Below are positions 5,498 through 33,945 of a stretch of 34,707 bases of DNA, in pieces. The notes beneath the pieces were generated by a model. That model did no database searches. It saw only the letters and a list, made by a program, of their open reading frames with translations, and was not told the DNA's origin. The DNA is taken from assembly GCA_009778035.1 (NCBI GenBank), contig WRKP01000027.1, forward strand, positions 1 to 34,707, written 5' to 3'. The position numbers and the translations under genes were made by a program. Position 1 is the stretch's first letter, and each line of letters opens with the position of its first letter. Origin of the DNA: Planctomycetaceae bacterium. Its GTDB lineage: Bacteria; Planctomycetota; Planctomycetia; Pirellulales; Thermoguttaceae.

Positions 5498-5566
5498 ACG
5501 TTTATCGCAACAAAGTTTGACACCCGCTTGCACAAATCAAACGATCTGCTAAAATGACCCCAGTTT

Positions 5567-5768
5567 GGTAACGGTGCTGTCCTTCGCCTGCGTTGAAGGA
5601 CAACAACAGGGAATCCAGTGAAAGGCTTTGTTCATCCAACATCGCCCCAGTCTGGAACGGTCCTCGCCGCTGTAACCGGCATAAAAACATTCATTCTTTA
5701 AGCCATTGACCAATATAGGTCGAGAAGGCGAAATGTTTTGCCGGAAGTCAGAAGACCTACCGATTGCC
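5567..5768 (+). promoter_or_regulatory. Cobalamin riboswitch upstream of the DUF1559 gene
   Basis: Conserved blocks of the cobalamin (B12) aptamer occur in the right order. GGGAATCCAGTGAAA (5609-5623) is followed by CTGG (5652-5655), which pairs with CCAG. Next come CGCCGCTGTAACCGG (5665-5679), the AAGCCATTGACC..GGTCGAGAAGGCGAAA segment (from 5700), and the B12 box AGTCAGAAGACCTACC (5746-5761). The closing stem P1 forms between GGTAACGGT (5567-5575) and ACCGATTGCC (5759-5768) with one bulged base. Downstream, AGGGAAAT (5797-5804) can pair with ATTCTCCCT (5819-5827), ending 4 bases before the ATG at 5832 where the ribosome must bind, and no U-run follows. Control of translation is therefore more likely than termination. 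Confidence 0.88.
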
Positions 5769-5831
5769 GTAAGAGTATTTCCTCAAGCGATGGACAAGGG
5801 AAATGCAAATCATCGTAAATTCTCCCTACTT

Positions 5832-6740
5832 ATGTCACGTAAACCGTATGCGTTCACACTGGTTGAACTTCTCGTCGTCATTGCTGTCATCGGCATGCTC
5901 ATCGCCCTACTGCTTCCGGCCATTCAAGCCGCCCGCGAAGCCGCCCGGCGGATGTCCTGCTCCAATAATCTCCGCCAAATCGGCATTGCTGTACACAATT
6001 ATCATGACGTCTATCAGCAAATCCCGCCCGGAAGGGAAAACCAAACGATGTTCGGTTGGGGAGCACTGATCCTGCCCTACGTCGAGCAGGGAAACCTGCA
6101 ATCACTCATCAATTTCAATGAAAAAATGTACAACGAACCCAACCGCACGACGGGGCAAACGCTCATCCCCCTTTTTCTCTGCCCGAGCAACCAAGAACGC
6201 ACCGTTCGGGATACGGAATTTTACAATCCCGACAGGGGTTGGGCGATGGAAATACTCCCGTTGGCACCGAGTCATTACGGCGGCATTCTGTCGGAAAGAA
6301 TTACTCCCTTCGGTGCCGCCTTGGAAGCGGACGGTTGGACTCTGAAAAATGATGAACTCGGCTGTATTTTAATGAATCGGCGGATTGGTTTTGCGGCAAT
6401 CACGAGCGGGCTGTCCAATACGGCAATGATTGCGGAGGCCTCGTCCTACGAAACCATTGATCCGCCGGTCTATGCCAATGGCAGTTGGATTAGCGGAACG
6501 AACATTTTCCGAAAGACGACCGCTCCGATCAATTACAGGCCGCGGTGTGAGCATTTTAATACATCGGAACCCTGGCATTGCTCGGAATGTTCGGCATATC
6601 AATATGAGGTGCGTAGTTTTCATCCTTCGGGAGCGTTTTTTTTGTACGCAGACGGTTCGGTGCATTTTTTGGCGACCGCGACGGCGATCGAAGTGCTCGG
6701 TGCGTTGTGTAACCGAATGGGAGGACTGGATTCGTGGTAG
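5832..6740 (+). CDS. DUF1559 prepilin-type protein under a cobalamin riboswitch
   Basis: 302 aa from the ATG at 5832. The frame is open further up (another ATG at 5790), but 5832 starts right at the leader MSRKPYAFTLVELLVV, a class III prepilin signal cleaved before Phe by a prepilin peptidase. A hydrophobic helix follows, then the DUF1559 hallmark AAREAARRMSCSNNLRQIG. The globular part contains the family's SGLSNTAMIAEAS and ends with FHPSGAFFLYADGSVHFL, the usual H-x(n)-DGSV motif. Planctomycetes carry dozens to hundreds of such genes; their function is not established, but they are thought to be pilin-like surface or secretion proteins. Its own 5' leader carries the B12 riboswitch, which is unexpected for this family and suggests that expression falls when cobalamin is plentiful. 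Confidence 0.93.
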   Translation: MSRKPYAFTLVELLVVIAVIGMLIALLLPAIQAAREAARRMSCSNNLRQIGIAVHNYHDVYQQIPPGRENQTMFGWGALILPYVEQGNLQSLINFNEKMYNEPNRTTGQTLIPLFLCPSNQERTVRDTEFYNPDRGWAMEILPLAPSHYGGILSERITPFGAALEADGWTLKNDELGCILMNRRIGFAAITSGLSNTAMIAEASSYETIDPPVYANGSWISGTNIFRKTTAPINYRPRCEHFNTSEPWHCSECSAYQYEVRSFHPSGAFFLYADGSVHFLATATAIEVLGALCNRMGGLDSW

Positions 6741-16505: not shown

Positions 16506-16601
16506 AGGTTTTCTGTAGGTAAAAGGAAAGGTAAAAAGGGAAGGCGATTAGGAGGGTTGATGTTGCCGGTTTCAGGCATGACATCAAAACCAACTAATCA
16601 T

Positions 16602-16674
16602 TACCCCCTAGGGGAATCGAACCCCTGTTTTCGGACTGAGAACCCGATGTCCTGGGCCACTAGACGAAGGGGGC
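16602..16674 (-). tRNA. tRNA-Glu (CTC)
   Basis: 73-nt cloverleaf on the minus strand. The acceptor stem GCCCCCT pairs with AGGGGGT (first pair G-U). The D arm contains TCTAGTGGCCCAGGA. The anticodon stem TCGGG/TCCGA holds the loop TTCTCAG with anticodon CTC. The T arm AGGGGTTCGATTCCCCT is canonical. CCA is not encoded. Confidence 0.95.
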
Positions 16675-16814
16675 ATTCAATGCACATCGCATTATCCGCT
16701 AGGCGATGTGTTTTGTCAAGCGTGCAGCAGTTGTCCGGTATGCCGTATTTGAAATACAAGGAACCTCCCCAAAACGGCATGCATACTCCCGGTGCAGGAC
16801 ACGGCCGTTTGCGG

Positions 16815-22252: not shown

Positions 22253-23428
22253 TTACATCGGCGGAACACCAAACCCGCCCTGCGGAGGCATTCCCGTAGC
22301 ACCCTGCGGAGGCATTCCCATCATCCCGCCCTGCGGCTGCATCGTTCCGCCCATACCACCCTGCGGTGGCATGCCCATCATCCCGCCTTGCGGAGGCATT
22401 CCCGCACCACCCTGCGGAGGCATCCCCATCATCCCGCCTTGCGGCGGCATTCCCGTACCACCCTGCGGAGGCATTCCCATCATCCCGCCCTGTTGCGGCA
22501 TCCCGAATCCTCCAGCGCCCTGCGTCTGCATCATATTATTCGGCATCATCGTTCCGCCCATCCCTCCGACGCCCATACTGCCATCCATCATTCCGCCCTG
22601 CTGTTGCTGCATTTGCATCTGCCATTGACGTTGCGTCAGCAATTCTTGTGCTTCCTCGGGATCCCAACTGCGAATATCATCGTCGGTATTGTCGATTCCA
22701 TCGGGGCCTGCCGACCAAATTGCGGGATTCACCCGACCCGTAAACTGGTTGACGCCGTAAAATGTCAGCGAACTGTCGTACCGATAGGGGTTCCCCCAAG
22801 GGTCTTGCAATTCCCTTTCGCTCCGAATATAGGGCGTAGGCCGTTGTCGGCGTTGCGTGAACAGTTGTTCGTTATGGATCCAGGCAGTCCATTCGTTTGT
22901 TAAAACAGCCCCTGTAGTCGGCACCGCCCCGCTGTTCAATCCGCCTGCCGGGTTCATGGGATCCATCGTCATTGGATTCATCGGGTCCATCCCGCCTTGT
23001 GCCGGCATATTCATCGGACTCATAGGATTCATGCCAACTCCGCCTGAATTGCCGACGCCCATCGAATTTGGTTGGTTTAAGAGGTCGGGCCCGATGCTTT
23101 GGCTTCCCCCCATCATGGAGGAGTTGTCCATTCCCGGCATCATGTTGCCGGGTTGTTGGATTGCCGGTGTAACGCCTACATTATCGGGAATGAAAAGGAG
23201 GGCAAAGAGTCCTTCGGCATTTGTTGGATATCTGTTGTGGTCGGCATGGTATCGCAGGAGTTCTCCTTGGAGTTTTTCGATGGAGATTCGTGCTTGATCT
23301 GAGCGAAAGCGTTGGTATTGGTTCCAGATACCGGGCAACAGGAGTGCGAAGAGAACCATGATGATGATAACGACGATAAGGATTTCGACGAGGGTGAAAC
23401 CTGCCGTGCGATTGTGCAGAGTGGGCAT
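22253..23428 (-). CDS. GspG-like type II secretion pseudopilin with Met/Pro/Gln/Gly repeats
   Basis: 391 aa, more than twice the usual ~145 for GspG. The leader MPTLHNRTAG is cut before FTLVEILIVV. The core continues KLQGELLRYHADHNRYPTNAEGL, and resumes after an insert with DPWGNPYRYDS and NPAIWSAGPDGIDNTDDDI, the calcium-binding end of major pseudopilins. The insert (about residues 92-170) is rich in Met, Asn, Pro and Gly. The tail (about 270-391) starts with a Gln/Met run and then repeats units of the type MMGMPPQGG and TGMPPQGG. No other gsp genes are nearby. The low-complexity parts are probably extended and surface-exposed on the fibre; their role is unknown. Confidence 0.85.
   Translation of the reverse strand: MPTLHNRTAGFTLVEILIVVIIIMVLFALLLPGIWNQYQRFRSDQARISIEKLQGELLRYHADHNRYPTNAEGLFALLFIPDNVGVTPAIQQPGNMMPGMDNSSMMGGSQSIGPDLLNQPNSMGVGNSGGVGMNPMSPMNMPAQGGMDPMNPMTMDPMNPAGGLNSGAVPTTGAVLTNEWTAWIHNEQLFTQRRQRPTPYIRSERELQDPWGNPYRYDSSLTFYGVNQFTGRVNPAIWSAGPDGIDNTDDDIRSWDPEEAQELLTQRQWQMQMQQQQGGMMDGSMGVGGMGGTMMPNNMMQTQGAGGFGMPQQGGMMGMPPQGGTGMPPQGGMMGMPPQGGAGMPPQGGMMGMPPQGGMGGTMQPQGGMMGMPPQGATGMPPQGGFGVPPM
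22260..22500. repeat. Coding tandem repeats in the pseudopilin tail
   Basis: Degenerate 24-27-bp units encoding MPPQGG(M/T/A)(M)G on the minus strand; on the plus strand they read CCCTGCGGAGGCATTCCC with small changes. They are in frame and should be prone to gain or loss of units. Confidence 0.85.
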
Positions 23429-23533: not shown

Positions 23534-23561
23534 TTGAAAATTCCACTACGTTCGGTAATAT
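23534..23561 (+). promoter_or_regulatory. Promoter of the IleRS C-terminal-like gene
   Basis: TTGAAA (23534-23539), a 16-bp spacer and TAATAT (23556-23561). The predicted transcription start is only ~2 bases before the ATG at 23570. Confidence 0.55.
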
Positions 23562-23569
23562 ATCTGACA

Positions 23570-24802
23570 ATGACGACAGCCGAATATACACAACAGGATT
23601 GCGAAACGTCCTCCCACACGACACATCGTACCGGGCTGACTCCCCTCGCAAGCGTACATCTTGCCGCCTATCCCAAGGCAAATGAAGCATTGATAAACCA
23701 TAAGATGTTGAGCGAAATTCAGTTGATGCGGGAACTCGTTTCGCTCGGCCGGGCCGCCCGGTCAACCGGCCAACTTAAAGTCCGCCAACCGCTCGCCGGA
23801 ATGAAAGTGATGTTCTCCAATCCCGAAGTTGCCGGTATTTTTTGGGGCTCCGACGTGATTGACAATGTCCGCGTCATCCAAGACGAGTTAAATATCAAGG
23901 AAATGAAGGTTTTGGAGGACAAAGCCGAATTCGAGGAGTACGTCTCGTTCACGCTGTTGCCGGATTTCAAGAAATTGGGCCCGAAGTTGGGCAAGCAGTT
24001 GCCCAAAGTCAAGGAATACCTTGCCCAGGCCGATGGGGCCGCAATGCTTACGGAATTGGATAAAAACCAAAAAGTGGTGCTCAAATTGTCGGACGGCGAA
24101 GTCGAATTGACGAACGAGGAAATTCAAATCCGACTGACGGCCAAAGAAGGCTGGAAAGCCGCACAGGGGCCGAGTTGCGTGGTCGTGCTGTCGACGGAAC
24201 TTACGGAAGAACTTTTAGCGGAAGGCCGGGCCCGGGAAGTTGTCCGGCTCATACAGGATCGCCGCAAGGAGTTGAATCTCAATTATACCGACCGCATTTT
24301 GGTCGGCATTCAAACACCGTCGCAGTTGATCGGGCAGGCATTGCATAAGCACATTGAGTACATCAAGGGGGAGACGTTGGCCTTGGATTTGAAAAAGGGC
24401 CGAGTGGCCAATTCGGAGCCTTTTGAACACACGGTCGACGGCGAGGAATTGACCCTGTACGTCGCGTCTGCGGAGACTGCCGCAAAAGCAGCGACGGAAA
24501 CAGAAATAGCGACAGAACCGGAACCTGCGGAGGAACTCCCATCGGAAAGCCGGGCGCGGGAAATTATCCGCCTCATACAGAATCGCCGCAAGGAGTTGGC
24601 TTTGAACGCGACGGATCGTATTTTGGTCGGCATTCAGACGCCGTCGCGGATTATTGGCCAAACCTTGTACGAACATATAGAATACATCAAGAAAGAGACG
24701 TTGGCTTTGGATTTGAAGAAGGGCCGAACGGCAAATTCGGAGCCGTTCGAGCACACGGTGGACGGCGAAGAGTTGACGTTGTCCATCGCGGCTGCGGAAT
24801 AG
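23570..24802 (+). CDS. Stand-alone C-terminal region of isoleucyl-tRNA synthetase with duplicated end domain
   Basis: 410 aa from the ATG at 23570. The catalytic domain, HIGH, KMSKS and editing domain of IleRS are all absent. The similarity begins in the anticodon-binding domain (SVHLAAYP, LVSLGRAARSTGQLKVRQPL, VIQDELNIKEMKVLED). It continues into the end domain (DUF5915-type): LAEGRAREVVRLIQDRRKEL, then TDRILVGIQTPS and HIEYIKGETLALDLKKGR. This end domain is repeated a second time (about 24541-24795) after an acidic linker ETEIATEPEPAEE; the copies are very similar in DNA as well as protein. The upstream DNA is the divergent pseudopilin start, so the synthetase body is not merely frameshifted nearby. 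An open frame of 410 codons and a promoter argue for a working gene. It may bind tRNA or assist IleRS, or be a recent fragment. Confidence 0.8.
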   Translation: MTTAEYTQQDCETSSHTTHRTGLTPLASVHLAAYPKANEALINHKMLSEIQLMRELVSLGRAARSTGQLKVRQPLAGMKVMFSNPEVAGIFWGSDVIDNVRVIQDELNIKEMKVLEDKAEFEEYVSFTLLPDFKKLGPKLGKQLPKVKEYLAQADGAAMLTELDKNQKVVLKLSDGEVELTNEEIQIRLTAKEGWKAAQGPSCVVVLSTELTEELLAEGRAREVVRLIQDRRKELNLNYTDRILVGIQTPSQLIGQALHKHIEYIKGETLALDLKKGRVANSEPFEHTVDGEELTLYVASAETAAKAATETEIATEPEPAEELPSESRAREIIRLIQNRRKELALNATDRILVGIQTPSRIIGQTLYEHIEYIKKETLALDLKKGRTANSEPFEHTVDGEELTLSIAAAE

Positions 24803-26097: not shown

Positions 26098-26120
26098 GAT
26101 TCCCGGCGCGATGAAGAAAA

Positions 26121-26207
26121 CGGAGAGGACAGGATTCGAACCTGCGGAACTCATACAAGTTCACGGATTTAGCAAACCCGCGCAATAGACCACTCTGCCA
26201 CCTCTCC
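26121..26207 (-). tRNA. tRNA-Ser (GCT)
   Basis: 87-nt type II tRNA on the minus strand. The acceptor stem is GGAGAGG/CCTCTCC, the D arm contains GGCAGAGTGGTCTATTGC, and the anticodon stem CGGGT/ATCCG holds loop TTGCTAA with anticodon GCT. A long variable arm (GAACTTGTATGAGTTC) follows, then the T arm CAGGTTCGAATCCTG. CCA is not encoded. Confidence 0.96.
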
Positions 26208-26272
26208 GGTCGGCGTCCATTGTACACAATTCGCAGCGTGTGTCAATTACCGTCTGCATTTGAGCGCAGGAG

Positions 26273-26316
26273 CGGGGGGCGTGAGCCCCCCGGTGAGCCC
26301 CCCGGTGAGCCCCCCG
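26273..26316. repeat. GC-rich hairpin with three tandem 12-bp 3' arms
   Basis: CGGGGGGC (26273-26280) can pair with GCCCCCCG through a GTGA loop. The unit GTGAGCCCCCCG is present three times in a row (26281, 26293, 26305), so one 5' arm has three possible partners. Same hairpin type as 17805 and 28805. Confidence 0.85.
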
Positions 26317-30395: not shown

Positions 30396-32762
30396 ATGAA
30401 TCCCACGCTCACCCTATTCCGCAAAGAGTTCCGCCAGCACGGTGCCTTCGCACTGGCAATGGTCTTCCTATGCCTCTGCTTTCAAATTGCATACCAGATG
30501 GGCGAAAGGCTCGCCGACTACACCTCGCACAGCGACGCGTTCTTCTACATCGCCCTCGTCGTGACCGCTTTTTACGCCGGAACGGCCGCCGCTCTCGCGT
30601 ATTCCACGGAACATGCCGACAACACCTTTATCTTCCTGCGGAAATTGCCGATTTCGCCCGCGACCATTGCATGCGGGAAAATCGGCTGGGTGCTTTGCGG
30701 CACCCTGTTGGTACTCGTCGGCAACCTCCTCCTCACCGCCGTTTGGCTCGGCGCCGTTTGGACGGGCGGTCATTTTCACAGCGGAATCGCGATTGCCGCC
30801 GGAACCGGAATCATCGAAGCATTCGTCTGGGGAATCTTCTGGTCTACCCGATGCCGAAGCCAAATGAATGCACTCCTTGCGACTTGTTTGTGTGCGTCGG
30901 TTACGCTCATTCTCCTGGGCAACATTTTCCAGCCGAACAACACCGATGTCGTCGATGCGTATATTGCCATTATGCCCCATCGGATCGTGGTCATCCTTGT
31001 CGTCGGTTTTTTTGCCGTCCGCGGTGCGTTACGCTGGTTCGACTTCGCTGCGGCCCAGAGCCCCTGGTGGCGTACGATAGGCAGTCGATCGCGATTCAAA
31101 ACATCACTCGGCAACGCCGACATTGCCGCCCGGCGGTCGGCAATCTGCCTTCTTTTCCGCTATCCGCAACGGGTACAATCTCCGTTCTTCGCCCTTGTGC
31201 ATCAGCATTTGCGACACACCACGCTGCTCTACCCCTTGGGCATCCTCTGTTTCCTGATCCTTGGGGCTGGCTGGCTCTTGCTTTATTCTGACGGCAAAAT
31301 GGGCGACCTTTTTTGGTCGACACTGGGGCACTGCATTTGCATCGGCGGAATCGTGATTTTTTGGGGAAACATTTTTGGGCCCGACCAAAGGAATGATTCC
31401 TACCGTTTTTTGAGCCGGGTTGGGATTCACGAAGGCACCGTCTGGTGGAGCCGTATGTTGCCCGCTCTGCTCCTCTACTCGTTCCCGCTCGCGTGTTTAT
31501 ATTTCTATGCTGCGATGGACAATTTCGCCAGCGGGTGGGATCCTGCTGACACCGAAACTTGGAGAGACATATTTGATTTTGCGGCGATATTCTTCACCAT
31601 TTGGCTGATTCCGGCGGCGTTGGGCGCATTCATTTCCATATCGCTGCGCAGCCAAATCTTGGCGGTAACTCTGACCGTGGCAGCATTGTCCTTGCCCTCT
31701 ATTTGGGTAATATTCACGTTCCATTTTTTCTGGGTATCACCGGCGTGGACGACCGTACCGCTCTGCTTGGCCCTGTTGCTTGCATCTCGAATCCGAGCAG
31801 GATATTGGCTTCGGGAAAAGTTTACCTGGCGAAGCCGATTGATCCCGTTGGTCCCATTTTTCACGGTGCTGCTGGCCATTCTCGTTGCATTGCCCTTTGT
31901 GCGTGTCTATTCCGTGCCTTACGTTTCGTGGGCAGAGGTTGATGCTTTTTTTGACCAGGCGGACTTGGGCGACATGCGGCGAAGCCCGGAAAAACGCAGG
32001 GCTTTGATCGAATACATTGCGAAACACAATGCGGTCCCGCCGGAATATCAATCTCTGTACCTCGATTTTTTCCACATGCTCGAATTGGATCCGCAAGCCT
32101 GCTCGTTCGAGGAATATCTGCTGTTATCCTATTTGCGAGCGAGTGAAATGTCCCGTCATCCTGTGGTTTTTTCTGACGGTCGCCATTTTTTGCGGGGGGA
32201 TTGGGATCGGCAAAACTTAATTTCCTATGTGCCTTGGGAGTCGGTGCGTGCGGACCGGCGTTTGCGGCTGGAACTTGTTGTATGGCTTGTTGATAATGGG
32301 TATCTTCCGAATGAGGGCCGAGCCGCCGCAATGCGTCGTTGGAATGAGGATGGGCGGAATCAGAATGCCATTTTTGATGCAGATGGGTGGACTGTTGCGG
32401 ATGCTTCCATTTTGGATGAGCGGAATTTGTCTTTACGGCCACTTGGTTTGGCATATTCGGCGATTAATAATTGGTATATTGATCAGGGCACATTGCCGTC
32501 GTCGTTGGAGGAATTGGTAGAACGGGAGTATTTGGAGGCAATTCCGTCTCATCCCTTCACGGGCGAGTTGGTGCAGTATCATGAAAATGCTCTGCTACCG
32601 CAAGATGCTCATTTTGCTGGGGCTCTGACGGTTGGTAGGGGTGGTAGTTCGGCTTGGCTTGGCAGGAGTCGTGATTGGTGGAATCAGATGGCGGATGTGG
32701 AGCGGCCGTATGTGCAGTTGGGCAATAACTGCTTGGTGATACGCTTGCCGGAACCGGAGTGA
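30396..32762 (+). CDS. ABC-2-like permease with large C-terminal soluble domain
   Basis: 788 aa from the ATG at 30396, chosen because it opens with MNPTLTLFRKEFRQHGAFAL, the usual first line of ABC-2 exporter permeases. About twelve hydrophobic segments occupy residues 18-525. IFLRKLPISPATIACGK resembles the coupling region after the second helix. From ~530 to 788 the protein is hydrophilic (WAEVDAFFDQADLGDMRRSP onward). A C-terminal segment, LAYSAINNWYIDQGTLPSSLEEL, recalls a pilin-like or GspG-type substrate pattern. No ATPase gene is adjacent, so the partner must be encoded elsewhere. Function unknown. Confidence 0.65.
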   Translation: MNPTLTLFRKEFRQHGAFALAMVFLCLCFQIAYQMGERLADYTSHSDAFFYIALVVTAFYAGTAAALAYSTEHADNTFIFLRKLPISPATIACGKIGWVLCGTLLVLVGNLLLTAVWLGAVWTGGHFHSGIAIAAGTGIIEAFVWGIFWSTRCRSQMNALLATCLCASVTLILLGNIFQPNNTDVVDAYIAIMPHRIVVILVVGFFAVRGALRWFDFAAAQSPWWRTIGSRSRFKTSLGNADIAARRSAICLLFRYPQRVQSPFFALVHQHLRHTTLLYPLGILCFLILGAGWLLLYSDGKMGDLFWSTLGHCICIGGIVIFWGNIFGPDQRNDSYRFLSRVGIHEGTVWWSRMLPALLLYSFPLACLYFYAAMDNFASGWDPADTETWRDIFDFAAIFFTIWLIPAALGAFISISLRSQILAVTLTVAALSLPSIWVIFTFHFFWVSPAWTTVPLCLALLLASRIRAGYWLREKFTWRSRLIPLVPFFTVLLAILVALPFVRVYSVPYVSWAEVDAFFDQADLGDMRRSPEKRRALIEYIAKHNAVPPEYQSLYLDFFHMLELDPQACSFEEYLLLSYLRASEMSRHPVVFSDGRHFLRGDWDRQNLISYVPWESVRADRRLRLELVVWLVDNGYLPNEGRAAAMRRWNEDGRNQNAIFDADGWTVADASILDERNLSLRPLGLAYSAINNWYIDQGTLPSSLEELVEREYLEAIPSHPFTGELVQYHENALLPQDAHFAGALTVGRGGSSAWLGRSRDWWNQMADVERPYVQLGNNCLVIRLPEPE

Positions 32763-32839
32763 TGGCCTCGCAAGCCTGCACAAGAGCCTACAACACAACG
32801 AGCCCCCCGGCTCTAGCAACACATTTTCTGCATTTTCGA

Positions 32840-32845
32840 TATACT
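32840..32845 (+). promoter_or_regulatory. -10 box of mutY
   Basis: TATACT ends 8 bases before the ATG at 32854; no clear -35. A near-leaderless start is predicted. Just upstream (around 32801-32814) is a small GAGCC/GGCTC hairpin. Confidence 0.4.
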
Positions 32846-32853
32846 ACGTCCGA

Positions 32854-33945
32854 ATGCAGCCCTGCCATTTCGCTCCCTTTCGCCGCCGCTTAACCCAATG
32901 GTTTCACAAACACGCCCGATCCCTGCCCTGGCGAAATGTTAATGATCCCTACCTCGTTTGGATCAGCGAAATTATGCTCCAACAAACAACCACTCAAACC
33001 GTTCAAGGCTATTTTGCCCGCTTCATCAATGCCTTTCCTACCATCCAAGCCCTTGCCGAAGCCGATATTGATTCCGTGAACCGTCTCTGGGAAGGACTCG
33101 GATACTATCGGCGATGCTCCCTGCTCCATCAAGCCGCAAACCAAATCGTTGCCCAATTCAACGGCCAGTTTCCCGACAATTTTCAAGACGTCCGCAATCT
33201 GCCCGGCATCGGTCGCTACACCGCCGGCGCAATTCTTTCCATCACCTTTGACCAACGCTTGCCAATTCTCGAAGCCAATACCTTACGCCTGCATGCCCGA
33301 CTGTTGGCGGAGCGCGATAACATCCTGCAAGGTCCGGCCAATGCTCGGCTTTGGCAGTTTGCCGAAGATATTTTGCCTCGCCGCAATTCGGGCAACTTCA
33401 ATCAGGCCCTGATGGAATTAGGCAGCCTCGTTTGCACGCCGAAATTGCCGAAATGCAATGAATGTCCGGCAATCATGTTTTGCGAGTCGGCAAGACAAGG
33501 TTTGCAGCATGAAATACCGACTCCGCAGGCGAAGCCGCAGAAGGAATGCCGAACCGAGGCCGCTTTGCGTGTCCGAAAACGGGGCAAAACGCTGTTAATT
33601 CGTTATCCTCAAGGCTGGCGTTGGGCGGGACTTTGGGACTTTCCCCGTGCCCAAACGCAGGCCGAATCGTGCAAAACGTTTTTTACGGATACGATCCTGC
33701 AAGATCGCCTACTTCAAGACAGACTGTCGGAACTGACGGGCCGACAACTGATTCCGCAAAACTTGATTTGTTCGCTCAAACACACGGTAACGAAGTATCG
33801 CATTACATTATTTTTTTACGACGGAATTGATGCAGGCCGAGCCGATGGCAACCCGCAGTGCGAAACGCGTTGGGTCAGCACATCGGAATTGCAAAAATTG
33901 CCGTTGAACTCGACTGCCCGAAAACTGGTACAACGGGATGATTGA
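32854..33945 (+). CDS. mutY: A/G-specific adenine DNA glycosylase
   Basis: 363 aa, normal length. MutY removes adenine paired with 8-oxoguanine. The N-terminal part has DPYLVWISEIMLQQTTTQTV, whose Glu39 matches the proton donor. The helix-hairpin-helix is NLPGIGRYTAGAIL. The [4Fe-4S] cluster cysteines are Cys194, 201, 204 and 210 (C-x6-C-x2-C-x5-C). The C-terminal NUDIX-like domain that reads 8-oxoG is present (LLIRYPQGWRWAGLWDFPR, SLKHTVTKYRITLFF). One odd point: the catalytic aspartate of the usual ILDGNV motif is replaced by glutamate (PILEANTLRL, Glu140). It is monocistronic. Confidence 0.94.
   Translation: MQPCHFAPFRRRLTQWFHKHARSLPWRNVNDPYLVWISEIMLQQTTTQTVQGYFARFINAFPTIQALAEADIDSVNRLWEGLGYYRRCSLLHQAANQIVAQFNGQFPDNFQDVRNLPGIGRYTAGAILSITFDQRLPILEANTLRLHARLLAERDNILQGPANARLWQFAEDILPRRNSGNFNQALMELGSLVCTPKLPKCNECPAIMFCESARQGLQHEIPTPQAKPQKECRTEAALRVRKRGKTLLIRYPQGWRWAGLWDFPRAQTQAESCKTFFTDTILQDRLLQDRLSELTGRQLIPQNLICSLKHTVTKYRITLFFYDGIDAGRADGNPQCETRWVSTSELQKLPLNSTARKLVQRDD

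Follow-up and report, generated by a model that had tools for sequence, protein, structure and literature searches.

Why does a reading frame that encodes only the C-terminal part of isoleucyl-tRNA synthetase (IleRS) stand alone in the genome of an uncultured planctomycete? The frame lies at positions 23570-24802 of the window, by which we mean the whole stretch analyzed, the 34,707 nt of contig WRKP01000027.1 from the Planctomycetaceae bacterium assembly GCA_009778035.1. We refer to it as ileS-C. The missing catalytic part was found as a separate gene, ileS-N, on another contig of the same assembly. We consider it quite probable that ileS of this organism was broken by a rearrangement-driven fission into two genes which give rise to a heteromeric IleRS, and that the end domain of the smaller product was duplicated.

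On the forward strand ileS-C forms a frame of 410 codons plus stop without interruption. In Pfam searches, residues 102-299 matched DUF5915 in two stretches (E 3e-57), and of Anticodon_1 the final portion alone was matched (profile positions 97-144 of 148; 22.9 bits against a curated cut-off of 25.1). No catalytic domain was found in ileS-C. Its sequence matches in the PDB were exclusively IleRS chains, the best being the type 2 enzyme IleRS2 of Priestia megaterium and yeast IleRS, which together with DUF5915 identifies a type 2 C-terminal region. This region consists of SD1-SD3 with a zinc-free SD3 (PMC10485003). ileS-C would thus read as the tail of SD1 followed by SD2, SD3 and a second SD3, the names being given by position. 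The first-pass annotation, made from the sequence before any database search, had described 410 intact codons with part of the anticodon-binding domain, two end-domain copies and no catalytic part. The frame, the Pfam matches and the repeat comparison bear this out.

A search for the IleRS family in the organism's own genome (G000, 2.46 Mb in 76 contigs, 74.9% complete) returned a single catalytic gene, ileS-N at C4:48466-51299. No other IleRS or full-length ileS, no replacement enzyme and no second C-terminal half were found in this assembly, and the search for a full-length gene that the first-pass annotation had proposed ended at the catalytic half. The product of ileS-N comprises 944 aa as listed, or 914 aa from the likely initiator Met, and its translation contains PHPGH and KMSKS. 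PF00133 was matched at E 1.5e-108. Against TIGR00392 it scored 705 bits, or 792 bits with the neighboring match, which exceeds the family cut-off of 621.4. Its C-terminal end reads ...LAESFWQRLVCSPHNSEFPA (in a second excerpt ...LIAPFTPFLAESFWQRLVCSPHNSEFPA), directly followed by the stop codon.

The two genes complement each other closely. Positions 4-791 of TIGR00392 are covered by ileS-N, and the window frame resumes at 795. Since the cut runs through the anticodon-binding helical domain, neither half has a complete Anticodon_1; positions 1-89 are found in ileS-N and 97-144 in ileS-C, and the domain is complete only when both genes are summed. The stop of ileS-N and the start of ileS-C fall in the same short linker. 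Hence, the suggestion in the first-pass annotation that ileS-C is one half of a split IleRS gained support, as the only catalytic gene ends in the linker where this frame begins and no second C half exists in the assembly. Instead of as a single polypeptide, the IleRS is encoded in this assembly by two genes on two contigs. ValRS (~1047 aa) and LeuRS (~913 aa) are each encoded by one uninterrupted frame in this genome, and therefore the break is no general trait of large synthetases in the assembly. A split intein or trans-splicing was considered as well and rejected. Only 10 residues follow the homologous region of ileS-N and 26 precede that of ileS-C, extensions too short for intein halves. 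Group I and II intron families were not detected in the window or at the C4 locus (L029).

The break was also compared with related genomes. The genus set comprised 21 genomes, the organism's own and 20 congeners. In all 20 congeners both parts lie in one open frame of ~1120-1270 codons, some of these frames being ended by contig ends. Residues 1 to ~905 of ileS-N align up to position ~917 of congener IleRS, and ileS-C aligns with its residues from 26 onwards from position ~924, which leaves a few linker residues unaccounted for. According to the junction alignment, the break sits in a short linker of variable length that reads QRLV-DTKNGGLE-SVHLADYP in most congeners. In the leader of ileS-C only the final residues ...PLA resemble this linker (...PLE in relatives). 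The congener enzymes possess one end domain, and copy 2 of ileS-C matches that same domain again. An extra C half was present in none of the congeners, and a two-gene IleRS was seen in 1 of the 21 genus members searched. A contig scan of GTDB r220 returned one congener, the Planctomycetaceae metagenome-assembled genome (MAG) Cf509_bin67 (L032).

At the level of the order, 396 genomes were sampled and the best ~160 of 367 matches were examined for splits. No further split ileS was confirmed among the matches listed. Short IleRS frames elsewhere in the order were rejected as a second case, being truncations at contig ends. L066 (G260:C7) from another family of the order was rejected too, since there two frameshifts place the sequence in adjacent frames; these are probably sequencing errors.

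Both halves appear to be maintained. Of the residues that are invariant over 26 relatives, 344 of 350 are retained in ileS-N and 47 of 49 in ileS-C (together 391 of 399), and in a leave-one-out comparison the fraction lost in each half was inside the range of the intact congeners. Phylogenetic trees place ileS-N and ileS-C alike with the G002, G003 and G015 lineages, with a terminal branch of 0.26 for each half versus 0.16-0.18 for the nearest sister. By these trees the halves share one history and have been modestly accelerated.

The doubling of the end domain is visible in the DNA as a direct repeat of 280 nt (24195-24474 and 24519-24798, spacing 324) with 79% identity. In the protein, 69 of 86 residues are identical between the copies, and the long stretches ETLALDLKKGR and SEPFEHTVDGEELTL, already pointed out in the first-pass annotation, are indeed common to both. 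The differences between the copies are distributed over the three codon positions as 17/6/32. Nonsynonymous and synonymous substitution rates (dN/dS) were 0.13/0.88 by NG86 and 0.13/0.69 by YN00, corresponding to ratios of ~0.15 and ~0.2. The differences are mainly in third positions and dN/dS is low, so that selection must have maintained both copies from the time of the duplication, which itself does not date from the very recent past. The first-pass annotation had regarded restriction to this strain combined with a lack of selection as speaking against its interpretation. The restriction was observed among the 21 genus members, but the low dN/dS between the copies contradicts a lack of selection.

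An AlphaFold model of ileS-C, derived from an alignment of two sequences, was reliable over the two end domains only (predicted local distance difference test, pLDDT, ~50-83). In each modeled end domain a long helix precedes an alpha/beta unit. Copy 2 fits residues 980-1074 of chicken IARS1 (7wrs_B; Z 10.8, root mean square deviation 2.3 over 88 residues) and residues 974-1072 of tRNA-bound yeast IleRS (Z 9.3, 3.4 over 93), and the fit to the C-terminal anticodon-loop domain of ValRS was weaker. We guess that the second end domain may strengthen tRNA binding or the association with a partner.

These observations are consistent with the following course of events. A chromosomal rearrangement would have interrupted an ancestral single ileS of type 2 with ~1200 codons, the breakpoint being in the short variable linker behind the first part of the anticodon-binding helical domain and ahead of its last part. 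The catalytic part, CP1/editing and the larger share of the helical bundle would have gone to ileS-N, and the remaining bundle to ileS-C together with the tRNA-binding region at the C-terminus. Association of the two proteins in trans is very likely; it would rebuild the bundle across the break, form a heteromeric IleRS and be the simplest working arrangement. The end domain of ileS-C would have been duplicated in tandem, with copy 2 remaining under purifying selection and plausibly adding a tRNA contact or stabilizing the association. It is likely that this organism has a natural two-subunit bacterial IleRS, split in the anticodon-binding helical domain, with a small tRNA-binding subunit that bears a doubled end domain, and that its catalytic and anticodon-reading parts are encoded and expressed separately and are able to evolve independently. 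Because the upstream gene is divergent, ileS-C needs a promoter. The claim of the first-pass annotation that it has its own was not substantiated, as the candidate ahead of the start codon is a weak match and the scan gave 4 sites versus 1.1 +/- 1.3 in shuffled sequences. If used, this candidate would imply a nearly leaderless mRNA.

Several points weigh against a fission. The split is seen in one MAG only, a full-length ileS could be missing because of the completeness of 74.9%, and the organism's own branches are modestly longer than that of the nearest sister. In addition, ileS-C folds poorly outside the end domains when modeled alone in the two-sequence prediction (pLDDT ~30), a result we grade as uninformative rather than contrary. 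A reciprocal chimeric assembly would likewise yield complementary halves. Chimeras do occur in MAG assemblies, and if contigs C4 and C27 (the window) had been reciprocally misjoined within an intact ileS, the resulting halves would be exactly complementary. We nevertheless consider such an artefact, which the first-pass annotation had named as a possible objection, unlikely in view of the junctions. Both are located mid-contig and far from the ends (contigs of 83 kb and 34.7 kb). Exact matches >11 bp between the junction regions were not found within 400-1500 bp on each side, and the genome holds no long second copy of junction DNA. Thus, what ordinarily produces reciprocal misjoins is lacking here, and a repeat-mediated misjoin is disfavored. 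The protein has ten linkers of variable length, which together make up 17.5% of it, and the cut lies in one of them; on either partner side the breakpoint is in non-coding DNA (~14%). Roughly estimated, a random break would meet the linker and non-coding DNA on both partner sides in ~0.4% of cases. The neighboring genes are complete at the junction ends: the 475-aa gene beyond ileS-N has a complete C-terminus at the junction side compared to the congeners, and the pseudopilin gene across the junction from ileS-C has a complete start. Moreover, ileS-N has gained its own stop and ileS-C its own start.

The incomplete assembly also leaves room for a full-length ileS in the unassembled quarter, with ileS-C being a free-standing paralogue that acts as a tRNA-binding or regulatory factor, the other interpretation put forward in the first-pass annotation. 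Stand-alone proteins derived from synthetases are known (PMC9437257). This is improbable, however, as two things would have to coincide, a full-length gene missing from the assembly and an unrelated catalytic gene that is truncated in this very linker. Moreover, ileS-C branches with the same relatives as ileS-N, and an extra C half is absent from all congeners. Even less probable is a recent break after which another enzyme charges isoleucine and both pieces persist as undegraded pseudogenes. The somewhat longer branches would fit such decay, but 944 and 410 codons are intact, the invariant residues are almost all retained, and the assembly offers no replacement enzyme. Furthermore, purifying selection lasted well past the end-domain duplication, since dN/dS is ~0.15-0.2 at a dS of ~0.7-0.9.

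The surroundings of ileS gave little information on how the genes at the broken locus were originally arranged. Gene order around ileS (L033-L052) is almost wholly unshared between the species of the genus that were compared, and rearrangement near ileS therefore seems to be common. Synteny with congeners was uninformative for the same reason. The unshared gene order points to unusually frequent rearrangement in the genus. The gene at 32740-33942 of the window has a homologue in the congeners G005 and G018 (L079, L082) that directly precedes the 475-aa gene, which in the organism's own genome (L029:3000-4427) adjoins ileS-N on C4. Judged from this arrangement, a region that was once linked may now be distributed over the two contigs. 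Just past the ileS-N stop, a G+C-rich palindromic GGGGGGCTCACGCCCC-like element is located at L029:4434-4459 (C4:48433-48458). Other contigs contain looser relatives of it, and GTGAGCCCCCCGG is found in tandem at 26266-26316 of the window. This element might be a dispersed repeat that served in the rearrangement. Although it has far fewer contigs, the assembly is smaller than that of any of the 20 congeners (2.9-5.5 Mb), which may reflect either genome reduction or incompleteness. Coordinates of the features are compiled in Table 1.

Table 1. Features of ileS-C, its surroundings and other parts of the window
Feature	Position	Strand	Remarks
ileS-C, C-terminal half of IleRS	23570..24802	+	Coding sequence, 410 aa, ATG to TAG; sole copy in genome
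Leader of ileS-C, 26 codons	23570..23647	+	From junction alignment; mostly no counterpart in relatives
SVHLAAYP... helices, last part of anticodon-binding helical domain	23648..23827	+	Anticodon_1 97-144/148
Middle of C-terminal region, DUF5915, approximately SD2 position of type 2 IleRS	23828..24217	+	Boundary approximate; naming after PMC10485003
End domain copy 1, residues 217-302	24218..24475	+	Ortholog of the single end domain of relatives
Ala/Glu/Thr-rich linker of 22 residues between the end domains	24476..24541	+	
End domain copy 2, residues 325-410	24542..24799	+	Model fits type 2 IleRS C-terminal domains (vertebrate, yeast, P. megaterium)
Weak promoter-like match, candidate	23534..23561	+	9/12 consensus; 9 bases ahead of ATG
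Type II secretion system (T2SS) protein G-like pseudopilin gene, intact, divergent	22253..23428	-	Across junction from ileS-C; start (N-terminus) complete versus congeners
Cobalamin riboswitch	5555..5779	+	Rfam RF00174, 90.2 bits; before or overlapping start of frame 5706-6740
tRNA-Glu(CTC) gene	16601..16675	-	
tRNA-Ser(GCT) gene	26120..26208	-	

A natural split IleRS was not reported in the literature searched, which did not extend to subscription papers. Shiba and Schimmel reportedly found in 1992 that artificially split E. coli IleRS assembles into a working enzyme in the cell. Those constructs were made in the laboratory from a type 1 IleRS, whereas here the split would be natural and concerns type 2. 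Their paper (PNAS 89:1880) is cited in PMC12069011. The LeuRS of Aquifex aeolicus, split inside the CP1 editing insert, is a further parallel. It is a natural class Ia synthetase with two subunit polypeptides, which are encoded by separate genes and assemble (Xu et al. 2002, cited in PMC3436685), as is proposed here for ileS-N and ileS-C. The present case differs in being an IleRS, split in the anticodon-binding bundle and with a duplicated end domain. Split AlaRS is found in Nanoarchaeum equitans (NEQ 211-547; PMC3655853), likewise an essential synthetase in two unlinked genes of one lineage with a one-gene relative (Nst1). N. equitans, however, is a symbiotic archaeon in which about ten genes are split, and AlaRS belongs to class II, in contrast to the bacterium and the class I enzyme studied here.

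Among intact enzymes, P. megaterium IleRS2 (8c8v, PMC10485003) resembles ileS-N plus ileS-C in sequence, domain order and the zinc-free SD1-SD3, but it is one chain with one end domain. Vertebrate IARS1 (7wrs, PMC9643514) shares with ileS-C the appending of extra domains at the IleRS C-terminus; its UNE-I is composed of tandem UBX domains (PMC9643514), unlike the second end domain of ileS-C.

IleRS is regarded as a single-chain enzyme. If our reading is true, this would be a rare case in which an essential synthetase of a bacterium has undergone fission in nature, and sister species with intact enzymes are available for comparison. The laboratory result that a cut IleRS reassembles would become an evolutionary observation, and the catalytic half and the anticodon-reading half would be separately heritable and expressible. 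The doubled end domain may provide a natural test of what that domain contributes.
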